Shown in pieces: positions 2,291 through 10,486 of a stretch of 38,656 nt of DNA. The stretch's first letter is position 1, and each line of letters starts with the position of its first letter. The stretch is from assembly GCA_944322815.1 (NCBI GenBank), contig CALUQB010000028.1:1-38656 (forward strand), in the 5' to 3' direction. The notes below the pieces were generated by a model, which did no database searches, was not told the origin of the DNA, and saw only the letters and a list, made by a program, of their open reading frames with translations. Position numbers and translations under genes: made by a program. The stretch comes from an uncultured Bacteroidales bacterium (lineage in GTDB: Bacteria; Bacteroidota; Bacteroidia; Bacteroidales; UBA932).

Positions 2291-2324
2291 TTGGCAGGCA
2301 AACCGAAAATAATTCTTATATTTG
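2291..2324 (+). promoter_or_regulatory. Promoter of the aromatic amino acid operon
   Basis: The -7 box TATATTTG (2317-2324) is a full match to TAnnTTTG, with TTGG at 2291-2294 in the -33 position (22-base spacing). A start near 2331 would place the leader-peptide ATG (2343) about 12 bases into the transcript. Confidence 0.65.
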
Positions 2325-2342
2325 TCAACGGTTTTGAAGAAT

Positions 2343-2399
2343 ATGAACAGGCGATTTAGCGCATACGGTTATTTTTATTTCTATTTCCAGAAAAGGTGA
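2343..2399 (+). CDS. Phe/Tyr-rich leader peptide of the pheA operon
   Basis: An 18-codon ORF reading MNRRFSAYGYFYFYFQKR. Eight of its residues are Phe (4) or Tyr (4), and six of those are consecutive alternating codons (2370-2387). This is the hallmark of a transcription-attenuation leader peptide: stalling at Phe or Tyr codons reports low charged tRNA. It lies directly after a strong promoter and before an intrinsic terminator (2448-2480), ahead of genes for Phe and Tyr synthesis. In the well-known enterobacterial pheA and pheST leaders the peptide is Phe-rich. Here both amino acids are represented, fitting an operon with both the prephenate dehydratase and dehydrogenase branches. The product should have no function beyond being translated. 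Seen directly in the sequence; not tested. Confidence 0.88.
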   Translation: MNRRFSAYGYFYFYFQKR

Positions 2400-2402
2400 T
2401 AG

Positions 2403-2480
2403 CCGGGCGTTGCGTGTTGACAATATAAAATCATATGGGTTTATGTTGGAGCTGTCCGGATTCGGGCGGCTCCTTTTTTT
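2403..2480 (+). terminator. Attenuator: terminator with competing antiterminator upstream of pheA
   Basis: The terminator is an 11-bp stem (2448-2458 with 2463-2473, loop GATT, two G-T wobbles) followed at once by seven T (2474-2480). The T-run touches the first possible pheA start codon. A competing pairing of 7 bp joins 2403-2409 (CCGGGCG, just past the leader stop) to 2453-2459 (TGTCCGG) and would destroy the terminator. A ribosome stalled on the Phe/Tyr codons would leave 2403-2409 free, so the antiterminator forms and the operon is read. A ribosome that reaches the stop at 2397 would cover it, and transcription would end. The terminator is clear; the antiterminator is my manual pairing. 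Confidence 0.82.
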
Positions 2481-2489
2481 ATGACGAGA

Positions 2490-3335
2490 ATGGAAAATAC
2501 AAGCAAGAAAAGAGTAGCCATACAGGGGTATTCAGGCTGCTTCCACGAGCAGGCAGCGAGGATTTTTTACGGGAAATATGACGGGAGTACACCGGAGTCG
2601 GTAGAGTGCGCCACTTTCGATGATCTGTACAGGTCGTTGGATACGGGTCGGGCGGATGCTGCCATCATGGCGATAGAGAATACCGTTTCAGGCGGTCTCC
2701 TTCCCAATTTCGAACTGCTCAGGAAATACAATGTCAAGATCAAGGGCGAAGTCTTCCTGCGTATCCAGCAGAACCTGATGGCTCTTCCAGGGCAGAAGAT
2801 AGAGGATATCAGGGAGGTGAGGACGCATTATATGGCCATCAACCAGACACGTCCGTTTTTCCAGGCTTACCCGTGGATAAGGCTGGTGGAGTCTGAAGAT
2901 ACAGCGAAAAGCGCGGCGGATGTCGCGGAACAGAAGTTGGCCGGCGTAGGAGCTGTGGCCTCTCTTCTGGCTGCGGATCTGTTCGGGCTGGAGGTACTCA
3001 AGGAAAGCATCGAGACTTACAAGCAGAATTTCACCAGATTCCTCATCCTGGATGACGGGATCATAGTTCCGAAAGAGAGAGTGAACAAGGTGTCGCTTTG
3101 TTTCACCCTGCCTCACAAGGCAGGTTCCCTGGCCCAGATCCTTACTATCCTGTCTTTCTATGACATGAATCTGACGAGGATACAGTCACTGCCTATTCCC
3201 GGAAGATCCTGGCAGTATTTCTTCTATGCCGACATCAAGTTTGACAACTATCTGCGTTACAGCCAGGCGATCGCAGCGGTACGTCCGCTGATGGAGGATC
3301 TGAATATTCTCGGTGAATACGAAGCGGCTTTGTAG
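2490..3335 (+). CDS. pheA: Prephenate dehydratase
   Basis: Converts prephenate to phenylpyruvate, the Phe-specific branch. An N-terminal periplasmic-binding-like catalytic domain (about residues 6-190) contains VAIQGYSGCFHEQAA, the AIENTVSGG segment and the catalytic-threonine motif NFTRFLIL. A C-terminal ACT domain (about 195-275) should bind Phe for feedback inhibition. The usual GALV and ESRP motifs of that domain read GSLA and QSLP here; I believe QSLP is common in this phylum. It is a stand-alone dehydratase, since chorismate mutase is fused to DAHP synthase three genes later. I took ATG 2490 (281 residues) because ATG 2481 abuts the terminator T-run; both are possible. First gene of the operon. 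Confidence 0.95.
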   Translation: MENTSKKRVAIQGYSGCFHEQAARIFYGKYDGSTPESVECATFDDLYRSLDTGRADAAIMAIENTVSGGLLPNFELLRKYNVKIKGEVFLRIQQNLMALPGQKIEDIREVRTHYMAINQTRPFFQAYPWIRLVESEDTAKSAADVAEQKLAGVGAVASLLAADLFGLEVLKESIETYKQNFTRFLILDDGIIVPKERVNKVSLCFTLPHKAGSLAQILTILSFYDMNLTRIQSLPIPGRSWQYFFYADIKFDNYLRYSQAIAAVRPLMEDLNILGEYEAAL

Positions 3336-3417: not shown

Positions 3418-4623
3418 ATGATTATAAAACCTGCAAGAAGGACAGAATCAGTCCAGGAATATTATTTCTCCAGAAAACTGAAGGAGATAGACAGAATGAA
3501 CGCGGAACGCGATGCTGCCGGGGAAGAGCGAATCATAAATCTCGGCATAGGCGCACCGGACGGGATGCCGCCGGCAGCTGCGATAGACGCTCTCAAAGAG
3601 TCTGCATCACAGCCCGGAAACCATGCATACCAGAGCTATATCGGCATTCCTCAGCTTCGCAAGGCGTTTGCTGACTGGTATGCGCGGTATTATGGAGTTT
3701 CCCTAGACCCGGGGAAGGAAATCCAGCCGCTGGTGGGTTCGAAGGAAGGTATACTTCTGATTTCACTTGCTTTTCTGAATCCGGGCGACAAGGTTCTGGT
3801 GCCTGATCCGGGCTATCCTACATATTCGTCGGCTACAGCCCTCACCGAAGCCGGACTGGTTCCGTATGACCTGAAGGCCGGCAACGGATGGCAGCCGGAT
3901 TTCGATGCGCTGGAGAAGATGGATCTGTCCGGAGTGAAGATCATGTGGACGAATTATCCGAACATGCCTACAGGAGCTCCTGCTACCATGGAGCTGTATG
4001 GGAAACTGGCGGATTTCGGCCGCAGGCACGGTATCCTGATCTGCAATGACAATCCTTACAGTTTCATCCTGAATGACCGGCCTCTTTCCATCCTGGCGGT
4101 ACCCGGAGCGAAAGAGTGCTGTCTGGAACTGAATTCTCTCAGCAAGGCCCACAATATGTCCGGATGGCGTATCGGCATGGTGGCAGCCGATGCTGAGATC
4201 ATATCGCAGATATTGAAAGTGAAGAGCCAGATGGATTCGGGTATGTTCAAGCCGCTCCAGATGGCTGCCGTGGCCGCATTGTCCCAAGGACCGGAATGGT
4301 TCAGGTCTCTGAATGAGGAGTATAGGAGACGCAGGGTCCTCGCAGGCAGGATTTTCGACATCATAGGTGCGGAATATGATCATGACAGCAGCGGAATGTT
4401 CCTCTGGGGCAGGATTTCCTCAGGGAACAGGTTCCTGAACGCATCTTCCGGGCCGGAAGTATCACTTGGAGAGCAGGTGTCCGACAGGATTCTTTACGAT
4501 GCTGGAGTCTTCATTACTCCGGGTTTCATTTTCGGCAGAAACGGGCGGGACTATATCCGTATCTCGCTTTGCGCCAAACCTGAAGTCCTCGAACGCTCCG
4601 CCGAAAAAATTTCGGACCTGTGA
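3418..4623 (+). CDS. Class I/II pyridoxal-phosphate aminotransferase, probably aromatic
   Basis: A fold-type I aminotransferase of 401 residues. It has the NPG-like substrate loop, the TNYPNMPTG segment (about residue 180), the PLP-contacting Asp in NDNPY (about 204) and the PLP-binding lysine in SLSKAHNMSGWRIG (about 240). The C-terminal arginine that binds the substrate carboxylate is in DYIRISLC. It lies between prephenate dehydratase and prephenate dehydrogenase, so it most likely transaminates phenylpyruvate and 4-hydroxyphenylpyruvate. Prephenate, aspartate or LL-diaminopimelate-type specificity cannot be excluded from sequence alone. The gap after pheA is 82 bases and holds only a small CCCGA/TCGGG hairpin. 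It reads on toward tyrA with a 43-base gap. Confidence 0.85.
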   Translation: MIIKPARRTESVQEYYFSRKLKEIDRMNAERDAAGEERIINLGIGAPDGMPPAAAIDALKESASQPGNHAYQSYIGIPQLRKAFADWYARYYGVSLDPGKEIQPLVGSKEGILLISLAFLNPGDKVLVPDPGYPTYSSATALTEAGLVPYDLKAGNGWQPDFDALEKMDLSGVKIMWTNYPNMPTGAPATMELYGKLADFGRRHGILICNDNPYSFILNDRPLSILAVPGAKECCLELNSLSKAHNMSGWRIGMVAADAEIISQILKVKSQMDSGMFKPLQMAAVAALSQGPEWFRSLNEEYRRRRVLAGRIFDIIGAEYDHDSSGMFLWGRISSGNRFLNASSGPEVSLGEQVSDRILYDAGVFITPGFIFGRNGRDYIRISLCAKPEVLERSAEKISDL

Positions 4624-4666: not shown

Positions 4667-5533
4667 ATGAAAGTAGGAATAATAGGCCTGGGCCTGATCG
4701 GCGGCTCCATGGCCATCGACCTGAAACGGCGAGGCTTTGCGGATGAAATCACAGGGGTGGAGGCAGACAGTGTGAATGCTGCCGCCGCAGAAAAGATCGG
4801 CCTTGTCGACAGGGTGCTGACGTTGGAAGAATGTGTAAAGGAAAGTGACCTGATAGTATTGGCAGTGCCGGTAGGAGCTGCCGTAAAGATGTTGCCGGAA
4901 ATCCTGGACATGTTCAGAGCGGAGGAAACGGCCTCCGGATCGTGCAGGAAAACAGTCATCGATGTCTGCTCGACGAAGGAACAGCTCTCGAAAACGGCGC
5001 ATTATCATCCCATGAGGACGCATTACGTGGCGACACATCCGATGGCCGGGACGGAATATTCAGGCCCGTGGGCAGCCATGCCGGGGCTTTTCGACGGACG
5101 CGCATGCATCATCTGCAATCAGGAGGAATCATCTCCTGCAGCCGTACATCTGGTGGAGAAACTGTATGACTGTCTGAACATGAGGCCGATATACATGAAT
5201 GCATCCAGCCACGATGTCCATACTGCCTATGTGTCGCACATCTCGCACATCACTTCTTTCGCCCTTGCCCTGACTGTGCTGGACAAGGAAAAGAACGAGA
5301 AGCATATTTTCGACCTCGCATCCGGAGGTTTTTCATCTACCGTGCGTCTGGCGAAGAGCAATGCGGACATGTGGGTCCCTATTTTCTCGCAGAACAGGGA
5401 AAATCTGATAAAAGTCATCGACACGTATATCGAAAAGGTCCGGGCATTCAGGCAGGCCATCGACGGGTTCGATGAAGACGGAATCCGCGCACTCATCGAG
5501 GACGCCAACCGTATAAAGCGGATTATCCGCTGA
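4667..5533 (+). CDS. tyrA: Prephenate dehydrogenase
   Basis: Oxidatively decarboxylates prephenate to 4-hydroxyphenylpyruvate with NAD(P), the Tyr-specific branch. The 288-residue protein starts with a Rossmann motif (VGIIGLGLIGGSMA) and has the VDRVLTLEE and DLIVLAVPV segments. The conserved active-site region follows: THPMAGTEYSGP (about residue 125) and SHDVHTAYVSHISH (about 190), with the catalytic and substrate-binding histidines. There is no ACT domain, so any feedback control is not through that module. I chose ATG 4667 because it puts the Rossmann strand at residue 2; an in-frame ATG at 4466 would overlap the aminotransferase gene by 158 bases and adds unrelated residues. Confidence 0.94.
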   Translation: MKVGIIGLGLIGGSMAIDLKRRGFADEITGVEADSVNAAAAEKIGLVDRVLTLEECVKESDLIVLAVPVGAAVKMLPEILDMFRAEETASGSCRKTVIDVCSTKEQLSKTAHYHPMRTHYVATHPMAGTEYSGPWAAMPGLFDGRACIICNQEESSPAAVHLVEKLYDCLNMRPIYMNASSHDVHTAYVSHISHITSFALALTVLDKEKNEKHIFDLASGGFSSTVRLAKSNADMWVPIFSQNRENLIKVIDTYIEKVRAFRQAIDGFDEDGIRALIEDANRIKRIIR

Positions 5534-5612: not shown

Positions 5613-6734
5613 ATGGAAAAGAAACTTGACATCATCCCTTTGAAGGAGTGGAATCTGTTCAACCTGTTCAATGACAAGAGGCCGTTTCTGATAGCCGGCC
5701 CGTGCAGTGCCGAGTCTGAAATCCAGATCATGGAAACGGCCCGCGGTCTGAAAGCTTTGGGCATCAGCGTTTTCCGGGCAGGCATCTGGAAGCCGCGTAC
5801 CCATCCAAACACTTTCGAAGGCGTGGGAACTCCGGGCCTGAAATGGATGCAGAGGGTGAAAAACGAACTCGGGATGAAAATATGCACCGAGGTGGCCAGC
5901 GAGAAACACATCTTCGACTGTATGAAGTTCGGAGTGGATATGGTATGGATAGGTGCGAGGACTACCGCGAACCCTTTCCTGGTTCAGGAAATAGCGGATG
6001 CCCTGAAAGATACCGACATACCTGTGCTGGTGAAGAATCCTGTGAATCCTGATATCGACCTGTGGATAGGCGCGCTGGAGCGTCTGAATCAGGCAGGGGT
6101 GAAGAAGCTGGGAGTCATTCACAGAGGTTTCTCGACTTCGGAGAAGATTCCTTACAGAAACAGGCCGGACTGGCAGATAGCCATCGAACTGAGGACTCGC
6201 TATCCGGAACTGCCGTTCTTCTGCGATCCGAGTCACATGGGCGGAGCCAAGCAGTATCTGCAGGAAATTTCACAGACATCGCTGGATCTCGGCCTTGACG
6301 GTCTGATGATAGAGACGCATTGCGATCCTACCTGTGCGCTCAGCGATGCCAAGCAGCAGCTTACCCCTAAGGAACTCGAAGACCTTCTGTCGAAGCTGGT
6401 GGTCAGGGAAAGCGATTCGGACAGTCCTGAATACAAGGAGAATATCCATCAGCTCAGGGCCAAGATAGACGTACTGGACGACAGCCTGCTCTATCTGCTC
6501 GGTTCCAGAATGGGGATCAGCCGCCAGATCGGAGAATACAAGAAGACTAACAATATCGCCATTCTCCAGACAGGCAGGTGGGACGAATTGCTGGCCAAGG
6601 CCATCGAAAAAGGCGAGTCTCTCGGACTTCCGGCCAAGTTCGTTTCAGCTGTTTTCAATGCTATCCACGAGGCTTCCGTGCAGGTGCAGAACGATATTCT
6701 TACAGGAGATTCTCCAGAGTCTGCCGGAAAATAG
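5613..6734 (+). CDS. aroF: Bifunctional DAHP synthase / chorismate mutase
   Basis: The N-terminal domain (about residues 1-260) is a type I-beta 3-deoxy-D-arabino-heptulosonate 7-phosphate synthase, the first step of the shikimate pathway. It shows AGPCSAES (29-35), KPRTHPNTFEG, metal ligands in CDPSHMGG and ETHCDP. The C-terminal ~90 residues are an AroQ chorismate mutase helix bundle: LRAKIDVLDDSLLYLLGSR then GEYKK, with its Arg and Lys. Total 373 residues, as in the DAH7PS-CM fusions studied in Porphyromonas and Prevotella, where prephenate binding at the mutase domain inhibits the synthase. Last gene of the attenuated operon, so one switch controls entry to the pathway, the branch point and both branches. 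Its 3' end overlaps lpxK on the opposite strand by 35 bases. Confidence 0.95.
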   Translation: MEKKLDIIPLKEWNLFNLFNDKRPFLIAGPCSAESEIQIMETARGLKALGISVFRAGIWKPRTHPNTFEGVGTPGLKWMQRVKNELGMKICTEVASEKHIFDCMKFGVDMVWIGARTTANPFLVQEIADALKDTDIPVLVKNPVNPDIDLWIGALERLNQAGVKKLGVIHRGFSTSEKIPYRNRPDWQIAIELRTRYPELPFFCDPSHMGGAKQYLQEISQTSLDLGLDGLMIETHCDPTCALSDAKQQLTPKELEDLLSKLVVRESDSDSPEYKENIHQLRAKIDVLDDSLLYLLGSRMGISRQIGEYKKTNNIAILQTGRWDELLAKAIEKGESLGLPAKFVSAVFNAIHEASVQVQNDILTGDSPESAGK

Positions 6735-8947: not shown

Positions 8948-10282
8948 CTACAGGTTGAATTCCTTTTTTATGGTGTCGACCGAGTCGAGGAGTTCCCAGC
9001 CGAAGAACTGCACTATTTCCTGTGTCTTCACTCCGCCGCGGTACACTTCGACGAATTCCTGATACGGTTTCCTGCCGACATGGCCGTATGCTGCGGTCGG
9101 TTCGTATATAGGCTTTTTGAGCTGGAATTTCTCGATGATTTTGGCAGGCCTCAGGTCAAAGAGACTGGAGATTCTTTCTGCTATGTATGAATCGGAGTAC
9201 TGTTCCCCGTCAGGAGCCTTCGCAGCTGTCCCGTATGTGTTCACATAGATGCTCACAGGCTCTGCCACGCCTATGGCGTATGCCAGCTGGACGAGCATTT
9301 CATGGGCGAGACCGGCCGCTACCATGTTTTTGGCAATGTATCTGGCTGCGTATGCCGCAGAACGGTCCACTTTCGAAGGGTCTTTCCCTGAAAAGGCTCC
9401 GCCGCCGTGTGCGCCCTTGCCCCCGTATGTGTCCACTATGATCTTTCTTCCTGTCAGTCCGGTATCACCGTGAGGTCCGCCTATCACGAATTTCCCGGTA
9501 GGGTTCACATGAAGGATATACCCGTCTTTGAACAGGGCCGCCGTCTCTTCAGGAAGTTCCGCTATCAGTTCCGGAATCAGTATTTCCTGCACGTCCTTGC
9601 GGATTTTAGCCTGCATGGCGGCATCCACACGCTTCTGTCCGTACTGGTCGCAGGCTTCCTTGTAACTCATATTGCCGAGCTCTGCCGGCACGAATTCGTC
9701 ATGCTGTGTGGAGATGACGATGGTGTGGACCTTTATCGGGCGGTGTGTGTTGTCGTCATATTCGATGGTGAACTGGGATTTGGAGTCCGGTCTCAGGTAT
9801 GGCATCAGTTCAGGATTCTCTTTTCTGATTCTGGCGAGAATCATCAGAGCCTTGTGGGCGAGCGCCAGCGGCAGTGGCATATATTCGGCCGTGTCATCGC
9901 ATGCGTAGCCGAACATCATTCCCTGGTCGCCTGCTCCCTGTTCGTCGGCATTTTCGGTCACTACTCCGCGGTTTATGTCCTGGGACTGTTCGTGTATGGC
10001 CGAGATCACGCCGCAGGAGTTCCCGTCGAACATGTATTCGGCCTTGTTGTAGCCTATCCTGTTTATCACTTTTCTGGCCACGCTCTGGATGTCCACGTAT
10101 GCATCGTTTGTGCTTACTTCACCTCCTACTACCACCAGTCCGGTGCTGCAGAATGTTTCGCATGCCACCTTGGCTTCCGGGTCCTGACGGAGAAATTCAT
10201 CGAGTATGGCGTCTGATATCTGGTCCGAAACCTTGTCCGGGTGTCCTTCCGACACTGATTCTGAAGTAAATAAATATGCCAT
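8948..10282 (-). CDS. metK: S-adenosylmethionine synthetase
   Basis: Makes SAM from methionine and ATP. The 444-residue protein begins [24 protein letters not shown], with the ATP-binding histidine of SEGHPDK. It contains [12 protein letters not shown] (about residue 110) and the loop [21 protein letters not shown] (in part, about 270-290), which carries the phosphate-binding residues. At 444 residues it is longer than the ~384 of E. coli; Bacteroidota MetK are generally about 430. I chose ATG 10282: an in-frame start at 10378 would place coding sequence inside the leader terminator and adds 32 unrelated residues. The leader carries a SAM-II-type aptamer and a terminator, so the enzyme is probably repressed by its own product. 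Confidence 0.97.
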
Positions 10283-10348
10283 TGTTCTGTTGTGTGTTTG
10301 TATGGTTCCTGTTTTTGTCTGCGGATATCGTTTCCTGCAGCCGGGCAT

Positions 10349-10376
10349 AAAAAATGCCCCTTCAGAAATGAGGAGC
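10349..10376 (-). terminator. Terminator of the metK leader (riboswitch expression platform)
   Basis: On the minus strand GCTCCT (10376-10371) pairs with AGGGGC (10361-10356); a few inner pairs with one bulged A extend the stem. An A and then six T (10354-10349) follow. It stands 67 bases before the metK start and about 45 bases after the aptamer. The last two stem bases plus A and T-run (10357-10349) are exactly complementary, 9 bp, to 10438-10430 inside the aptamer. This provides an antiterminator when SAM is absent. Confidence 0.7.
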
Positions 10377-10422
10377 ACAAACCATATCTAAAAATTGGAT
10401 GCACGCACCGTGCGTGCAATGT

Positions 10423-10470
10423 CATTTTAGCATTTTTTTGTGTGGTTGCAAGCAGCCAAATCTCTCCACA
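10423..10470 (-). promoter_or_regulatory. SAM-II-type riboswitch aptamer upstream of metK
   Basis: On the minus strand, stem P1 is TGTGG (10470-10466) with CCACA (10445-10441). The loop holds GATTTGGC and GCTTGCA, and the 3' tail is A-rich, ending in GCTAAAA. TTTGGC (10460-10455) can pair with GCTAAA (10431-10426), giving the 6-bp H-type pseudoknot expected of SAM-II. The conserved blocks GATTT, TTGCA and GCTAAA are in the order and spacing I remember for the SAM-II (metA/SAM_alpha) class, known from alphaproteobacteria and Bacteroidota. The downstream gene makes SAM, which supports the call. A further hairpin (10418-10400, TGCACGCA with TGCGTGCA) separates aptamer and terminator. Confidence 0.8.
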
Positions 10471-10486
10471 TTTCCGTTTTCGGCTG

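Follow-up and report, generated by a model that had tools for sequence, protein, structure and literature searches.

A putative Phe/Tyr-sensing transcription attenuator before the pheA operon of an uncultured Bacteroidales bacterium, and related leaders across Bacteroidia

The pheA operon of an uncultured Bacteroidales bacterium is very probably preceded by a ribosome-mediated transcription attenuator of the trp/phe type, which would sense phenylalanine and tyrosine together. Judged from the leader and its relatives, we infer that the leader ORF is translated, that ribosomes stall on it and that starvation leads to read-through into the operon. The window analysed here is a stretch of 38,656 nucleotides (contig CALUQB010000028.1) within a 2.68-Mb assembly (GCA_944322815.1), and a protein similarity search with PheA returned uncultured Bacteroidales and Candidatus Cryptobacteroides as the nearest named relatives. 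The parts of the leader and the genes around it are as follows, in positions of the window.

1699-2262, + strand: frr, ribosome recycling factor, the neighbour 5' of the leader (Pfam PF01765)
2317-2324, + strand: TAnnTTTG -7 promoter element TATATTTG, a Bacteroidota-type box (read from the sequence)
2343-2399, + strand: leader ORF MNRRFSAYGYFYFYFQKR, 18 codons, with ATG at 2343 and TGA at 2397-2399 (sequence and alignment)
2352-2357, + strand: CGA-TTT (Arg-Phe) codon pair (invariant columns of the 70-leader alignment, codon statistics)
2366-2372, + strand: segment 1 (CGGUUAU), codons 8-10, partner 2399-2405 (fold, clade consensus folds, sister-clade covariation)
2399-2409, + strand: segment 2, with 2399-2405 for segment 1 and 2403-2409 (CCGGGCG) for segment 3 (folds, pair counts)
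2448-2480, + strand: intrinsic terminator, stem 2448-2473 with 11 pairs and a loop of 4, seven T at 2474-2480 (terminator scan)
2453-2459, + strand: segment 3 (UGUCCGG), inside the 5' arm of the terminator, putative antiterminator partner of segment 2 (fold, pair counts)
2481-3335, + strand: pheA, prephenate dehydratase (PDT), first gene of the operon (Pfam PF00800, E 4.7e-47)
3418-4623, + strand: aminotransferase class I/II, second gene of the putatively controlled operon (Pfam PF00155)
4667-5533, + strand: tyrA, prephenate dehydrogenase, start codon assigned by eye (Pfam PF02153, PF20463)
5613-6734, + strand: DAHP synthase-chorismate mutase fusion, at the end of the operon (Pfam PF00793 and PF01817)

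The leader ORF contains four Phe and four Tyr codons, and codons 10-15 (2370-2387) read YFYFYF. The -7 consensus was taken from the part of PMC7366714 available to us, and places the presumed transcription start near 2328. A direct reading confirmed base for base what the first-pass annotation had described here, namely the promoter, the 18-codon ORF with its eight aromatic codons and the segment 2403-2409; the terminator scan and the sequence bear out its 11-bp terminator with seven T ending at the first possible pheA start, and the Pfam matches agree with an operon that holds both branch enzymes and the DAHP synthase-mutase fusion. That annotation had called the attenuator complete. The parts it listed are present, while the protecting segment 1 (2366-2372, pairing with 2399-2405) was missing from its list.

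Elsewhere in the window, at 10417-10475 on the minus strand, a SAM-II riboswitch (RF01726, 62.3 bits) lies 5' of a minus-strand ORF (8948-10378) which, we presume, resembles S-adenosylmethionine synthetase. It is the sole Rfam match at the gathering threshold across the whole window, in which neither a T-box nor any Rfam leader family reached that threshold.

We refer to the protecting helix as 1:2, to the antiterminator as 2:3 and to the terminator as 3:4. The minimum free energy fold of the leader RNA is unusually stable (z -3.94, with none of 200 shuffles as stable); in it, 2366-2373 pairs with 2398-2405 and the terminator forms. When the 3' half of the terminator is left out, 2403-2409 pairs with 2453-2459, a fold that is not unusual for the window alone (z -1.17). 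Five sequence features of trp/phe/his-type attenuators were found in the leader: an ORF rich in codons for the operon's products, a terminator, an antiterminator, a 1:2 stem and the appropriate spacing.

With regard to spacing, the front of a ribosome reaches about 12-13 nt beyond the first base of its A-site codon. The last Phe codon begins at 2385, the stop codon at 2397 and the antiterminator part of segment 2 spans 2403-2409. Calculated with this footprint, the ribosome front would be at or before about 2398 for codons 8-15 and at about 2409-2410 at the stop codon. Among the units whose segment 2 is complementary to their own terminator arm at p<=0.05, its 5' end, measured from the first base of the last aromatic codon, lies a median of 18 nt (family of the window's pheA) or 14 nt (class) downstream, and 9 nt or more downstream in 46 of 46 family and 65 of 69 class units, a spacing that is partly imposed since the search for segment 2 was confined to the stretch round the stop codon.

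These distances suggest how the leader might work. RNA polymerase would start near 2328 and a ribosome would begin on the leader ORF. If Phe- or Tyr-tRNA is scarce, the ribosome would stall among codons 8-15 and mask segment 1 (2366-2372); reaching no further than about 2398, it would leave segment 2 free, so that 2403-2409 could pair with 2453-2459. This 2:3 pairing would block the terminator, and pheA, the aminotransferase gene, tyrA and the DAHP synthase/mutase gene would be transcribed. If both Phe and Tyr are ample, the ribosome would arrive at the stop codon (2397-2399) with its front at about 2409-2410 and cover segment 2; the terminator would then form and transcription would end before pheA. 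Where there is no translation, segment 1 would pair with segment 2 and termination would again be favoured. The interleaving of Tyr and Phe codons would mean that a shortage of either amino acid stalls the ribosome in the same place, which amounts to an OR gate. Alternation of the two residues is expected under such a scheme, because stalling for either one would have to occur at the same place. Across the order and class units it exceeds what composition gives, with 382 F-Y steps against a mean of 292 and a maximum of 333 in 500 shuffles.

The first-pass annotation had labelled the element a translational attenuator; we consider it rather a transcription attenuator controlled by translation. 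The first possible ATG of pheA is at 2481 and the T run abuts it at 2480, so that the hairpin borders on the start region. This arrangement would suit purely translational control, in which the hairpin hides the pheA start and no transcription ends, but in relatives the hairpin lies up to 146 nt before the matched pheA start (L065), too far to hide it. Moreover, the T-rich tail persists in relatives, and a stem followed by U has the form of an intrinsic terminator, so that we regard the hiding of the start as extremely improbable. The conserved start of pheA is probably the ATG at 2490, because several relatives align only from residue 4.

Conservation of the transcription attenuator was assessed in the best 80 of 355 pheA loci by protein similarity. 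Under a strict rule (ATG start, at least five Phe/Tyr residues, at least 30% Phe/Tyr, at most 400 nt upstream of pheA), which background stretches of 400 nt satisfied in 4 of 1441 cases, a leader precedes pheA in 68 relatives, and inspection added one more (L076); counted with the window, this is 69 of 81 loci by rule and 70 of 81 with L076 added by hand. Behind each of the 70 family leaders, a hairpin with a T-rich tail stands 21-52 nt after the stop codon. Conservation in relatives had been proposed as a check by the first-pass annotation, and each of its items was found: the promoter in 67 of 69, the Phe/Tyr peptide in 69 of 80, and compensatory changes in the helices. For the promoter, this refers to a TAnnTTTG box at most 60 nt upstream in those family leaders that have upstream sequence, where 200 shuffles gave a mean of 4.2 and a maximum of 10.

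In 32 family leaders (e.g. L019, L024) the promoter box ends exactly 8 nt before the leader ATG. The message would therefore have a 5' end of a few bases, and in these leaders it probably starts almost at its own start codon. In Bacteroides thetaiotaomicron, according to the part of PMC7366714 available to us, 5' UTRs of less than 10 nt make up only about 3.7% of the total.

Searches of the upstream regions showed that the leader ORF is absent in 11 of the 80 relatives. These 11 are scattered over about eight places of the PheA tree, some forks of which are weak, with losses counted by eye. A terminator still lies 5' of pheA in at least six of them, five by script (L017, L031, L049, L055, L080) and one by eye (L041), and inspection of a further one (L075) revealed a bulged hairpin followed by a T run. 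The retained terminators are of the CTGTCCGG type in L017, L031, L041, L049 and L055 and not in L080. Such terminators perhaps represent the end of frr. We read the absences as secondary losses, which occurred about eight times, because they are scattered over the tree and because the hairpin can also end frr. The first-pass annotation had named as refuting evidence the absence of the Phe/Tyr-rich ORF from close relatives that keep the terminator; at least six of the 11 leaderless relatives do fit this description, whereas 69 of the 80 relatives keep the ORF.

The same loci bear on the idea that the hairpin is the terminator of frr and nothing else, with the Phe/Tyr ORF and its pairing as by-products. 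In addition to the leaderless relatives that keep a terminator, the scan favours this idea, as it finds 2448-2480 as the only terminator between frr and pheA and none between frr and the leader. A mere frr terminator would nevertheless not account for the promoter box that 67 of 69 family loci have just 5' of the leader, for an ORF and segments 1 and 2 that are conserved and covary, or for a terminator standing 21-52 nt after every one of the 70 leaders. Furthermore, elsewhere in the order and the class pheA follows Phe/Tyr leaders whose terminators have a different sequence. We thus give this idea very little probability. The hairpin likely doubles as the end of frr, which is compatible with an attenuator.

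The alternative pairing leaves its own trace in the alignment of the 70 family leaders. In the 47-sequence sister clade, 95.3% of the cells of the 1:2 and 3:4 helices are paired, compared to 33-44% when the partner is slid by 1-3 columns. In the same helices and clade, 10 pairs changed on both sides, amounting to 47 cells against a shuffled mean of 17.5, a value reached by none of 500 shuffles. Two of the 1:2 pairs exchange G-C and A-U widely there (22 vs 16 and 13 vs 23 sequences). The 1:2 helix is nearly unvarying in the window's own clade of 14 sequences, so the evidence for its covariation comes from the sister clade. The consensus folds of a third clade, with nine sequences, build the 1:2 helix from a different, upstream stretch. 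RNAalifold over all 70 leaders recovered only an inner hairpin and the terminator; it misses the 1:2 helix because this helix is built differently in the three clades.

The pairing of 2403-2409 with the 5' arm of the terminator, already noticed in the first-pass annotation, was located to the partner 2453-2459 and holds throughout the alignment. Over all 70 leaders, 93.5% of the cells of the 2:3 helix are paired, against 16-52% in slid versions. Its outer pair is A-U in 27 leaders, U-A in 10, G-U in six, C-G in one and U-G in one, and its core CCGG/CCGG is almost invariant. Three of five measures of covariation beat all 500 shuffles, among them the number of cells changed on both sides (14 vs 4.2 in shuffles, 0 of 500 reaching it); the weaker ones were the number of pairs with a double change, a value attained by 236 of 500, and further pair types, attained by 11 of 500, and all shuffle controls for the helices ignore shared ancestry. 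Taken unit by unit, complementarity between segment 2 and the terminator arm of the same unit attains p<=0.05 in 46 of the 70 family leaders and in 69 of the 90 class units, and falls short of this value in 24 and 21, respectively. On these comparative data, the window leader reads as a full 1:2 / 2:3 / 3:4 switch of the trp/phe type, with covariation in all three helices.

The peptide itself is also conserved. The sister clade keeps an Arg in 47 of 47 sequences, a Phe in 46 of 47 and a Gly in 47 of 47, and all 70 aligned leaders use CGA for this Arg, a pattern that might point to an arrest peptide or a functional small protein, with RNA pairing as a secondary matter. The codon of the Gly, however, is part of segment 1 and pairs with segment 2, and the Gly is missing after RFS in eight of nine sequences of the clade whose 1:2 helix was rewired upstream. 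In the order and the class as a whole, what the peptides have in common is chiefly the F/Y run, and leaders rich in His, Trp or Ile/Leu/Val precede hisG, trpE and ilvD. For these reasons a function of the peptide as such seems highly unlikely to us as the explanation.

The CGA codon, which stands before Phe and opens the aromatic run, is a feature of its own. It makes up 1.9% of the Arg codons in the same pheA genes. In the class leaders, CGA is used for 12 of 18 Arg before Phe, always as CGA-TTT, compared to 5 of 87 other Arg (Fisher p 4e-8, with rows that are not independent). According to the consensus folds, its pairing partner differs from clade to clade. Among the order leaders for other amino acids, CGA was found in none of four Arg before the first His (24 units) and none of seven before the first Trp (20 units), and on these counts we rejected CGA as a general leader feature. 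In the His leaders of the window's own genome and of a congener (L302, L303), however, CGA encodes an Arg ahead of the His run, so that the codon is not strictly confined to Phe/Tyr leaders.

We found pheA in 258 of 296 genomes of the phylum and in 84 of 197 genomes of the order. Upstream DNA was read for 51 order loci (of 83 besides the own genome), for all 66 genomes of the same class outside the order and for 27 genomes outside the class, using a more permissive rule (ATG, GTG or TTG as start codon, at least five Phe/Tyr, 25% Phe/Tyr, at most 450 nt upstream). By this rule, a Phe/Tyr leader precedes pheA at all 51 Bacteroidales loci read. A PheA of the window type (E 2.8e-56 or better) is encoded in 58 of the 66 class genomes, and 54 of these 58 have the leader, 29 of 31 in a first set and 25 of 27 in a second. 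The four exceptions (L130, L141, L333, L336) all belong to one family (f10). In three of them another gene appears, by eye, to run up to pheA, and L336 was counted as lacking the leader as its rule-meeting ORF runs into pheA and has no terminator. None of the remaining eight class genomes, which have a distant PheA (E 1.5e-28 to 5.2e-19; L305-L312, families f5 and f12), has a Phe/Tyr leader, and we have therefore rejected the statement that the leader is class-wide without exception.

Outside the class, a leader precedes pheA in all four fetched genomes whose PheA is of the class type (L118, L129, L137, L138), whose pheA operon may have moved together with its attenuator. Leader and terminator together were found in none of the other 23 genomes, with the rule firing once without a terminator (L173). 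The leader tracks the type of pheA operon, not the taxon as such.

In the first order and class sets, leader and terminator occur together at 80 of 85 loci and form 90 units, 88 of which have at least two Phe and at least two Tyr codons; L167 has Phe only. The other five loci comprise two with a terminator by eye whose loop is longer than the scan allows (L112, L117), one hairpin lacking a T run (L107) and two with neither leader nor terminator (L130, L141). One locus of the same genus (L083), with a contig as long as that of L004 (128650), is omitted from the counts of alternation, segment 2, codons and promoters. A covariance model built from the 70 leaders matches the own unit and that of the same genus strongly. 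Of the 65 matches listed, which come from 53 of 295 order genomes, at least 10 lie directly 5' of pheA (G000, G303, G393, G482, G392, G460, G467, G398, G418, G487), the others being mostly weak. One match away from pheA (G482, contig C5) was rejected, as it has a terminator-like hairpin and no convincing leader. The class-wide claim is accordingly carried by the peptide scan and not by the RNA covariance model.

At 12 loci from eight families, two leaders stand in series before pheA (L084, L085, L095, L100, L102, L116, L125, L152, L153, L154, L101, L110). Ten of them have two leader-terminator units found by the scan, and in L153 and L154 the terminator of the second leader was assigned by eye, its loop exceeding the limit of the scan. 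The inclusion of L101 and L110 depends on accepting short first leaders of 13 and 11 codons; L148 and L166, which have two Phe/Tyr leaders, one of them lacking a convincing terminator, were not counted. The TAnnTTTG box precedes 56 of 80 first units (shuffled mean 4.9) and none of the 10 second units tested (shuffled mean 0.5). Both units of a tandem are probably part of one transcript, because the second units have no promoter box of their own and the first units do. Among the order matches from other genera than that of the window, the PheA of family f148 (L084, L085) is the closest; this family has two units, the second of which (YFRFS...) resembles the single unit of the window.

Leaders of this kind are not restricted to pheA. 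We searched 60 order genomes per gene for hisG, trpE and ilvD, leaving weak TrpE matches (L269-L271) out of the trp scan, and found a leader with matching codons and a terminator at 22 of 30 hisG, 18 of 27 trpE and 15 of 30 ilvD loci. Ten rounds with mononucleotide-shuffled upstream DNA gave no His, Trp or Ile/Leu/Val leaders. The window's own genome carries a His leader MTLRLSYGFHHHHFTRI before hisG (G000, contig C33, L302) and an Ile/Leu/Val leader MTFNGSIIISLLVVVIVVISIIVP before ilvD (contig C17, L300), each with a terminator; no TrpE match was found in this genome. Tandem units were also seen before trp (L252, L260), his (L227, L229) and ilv (L301) genes.

Overall, we lean towards the view that amino-acid operons throughout Bacteroidia are by default under leader-peptide attenuation. 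The Phe/Tyr OR gate would have been inherited with one type of pheA operon and, in no fewer than eight families, duplicated in tandem behind a single promoter, giving a two-step, multiplicative switch, with counterparts for His, Trp and Ile/Leu/Val. A single leader would thereby become part of a widespread regulon, from which a clear prediction follows for those genomes of Bacteroidia in which this pheA operon is retained. If this view is true, Bacteroidia couple the first ribosome to RNA polymerase tightly enough for the reading of single codons. In the part of PMC13323073 available to us, a 2026 list of phyla with runaway transcription does not include Bacteroidota. Leaders of this kind, if they work, would directly support coupling in this phylum, where the question has been little tested, and may serve as its reporters. 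Moreover, interleaved Phe/Tyr codons and serial units are natural designs for two-input and for steep switches.

A known counterpart of the window leader is that of enterobacterial pheA, with a Phe-rich peptide and an antiterminator controlled by the ribosome. Bacteroidota start translation without Shine-Dalgarno pairing, unlike the hosts of that leader. Both the enterobacterial leader (Rfam Phe_leader, RF01859) and the one described here have a terminator before pheA and Phe codons in the leader peptide, whereas here Phe and Tyr codons alternate and the operon spans both branches. Scores for RF01859 stay below its gathering threshold of 55 bits, at 15.9 bits for the window and 36.9 bits for the best of 14 related loci (L084). 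As for motifs of the same phylum, the Bacteroid-trp motif (RF01692) is described as cis-regulatory and is listed for Bacteroidetes in the portion of PMC2864571 available, and its name points to trp; it is below the gathering threshold in the window, and a search of 14 loci, including five trp loci, found no match to it at E 0.1.

In 2010, leader-peptide systems had to the knowledge of the authors of PMC2965389 been shown only in Proteobacteria and Actinobacteria, as stated in the part we could consult. The first-pass annotation had remarked that ribosome-mediated attenuation is rarely discussed in Bacteroidota. It is indeed rare in that literature, yet it has been raised for Flavobacteriaceae. 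The accessible text of PMC9723704 reports structured 5' elements before pheA and hisG of Flavobacterium psychrophilum, the pheA element also in other genera of the family, and its authors find strong hints of leader-peptide attenuation upstream of amino-acid operons. These elements belong to the same phylum and, in part, precede the same gene as the window leader; the main text of that paper, as far as accessible, contains no reading of Phe/Tyr codons, no survey beyond the family and no tandem units. Short ORFs of B. thetaiotaomicron have been called reminiscent of leader peptides (PMC7366714, in part). Among the titles and abstract openings of a largely open-access literature, we found no Phe/Tyr or tandem amino-acid attenuators in Bacteroidota.

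A precedent for the dual reading of Phe and Tyr comes from a survey of five genomes, where two candidate uORFs with notable Phe and Tyr lie near genes of shikimate metabolism (available part of PMC6429828). Tandem attenuators are known from the mgtCBR operon of Salmonella, in which, according to the section of PMC3641672 at hand, two short ORFs share one leader and control one operon; that operon serves magnesium transport and virulence, whereas both units of the pheA tandems would read the same two amino acids. The classical mechanism and the proposal of leader-peptide attenuation in Flavobacterium (PMC9723704) are thus already known; new are the breadth, the Phe/Tyr alternation, the tandem units and the invariant CGA codon.
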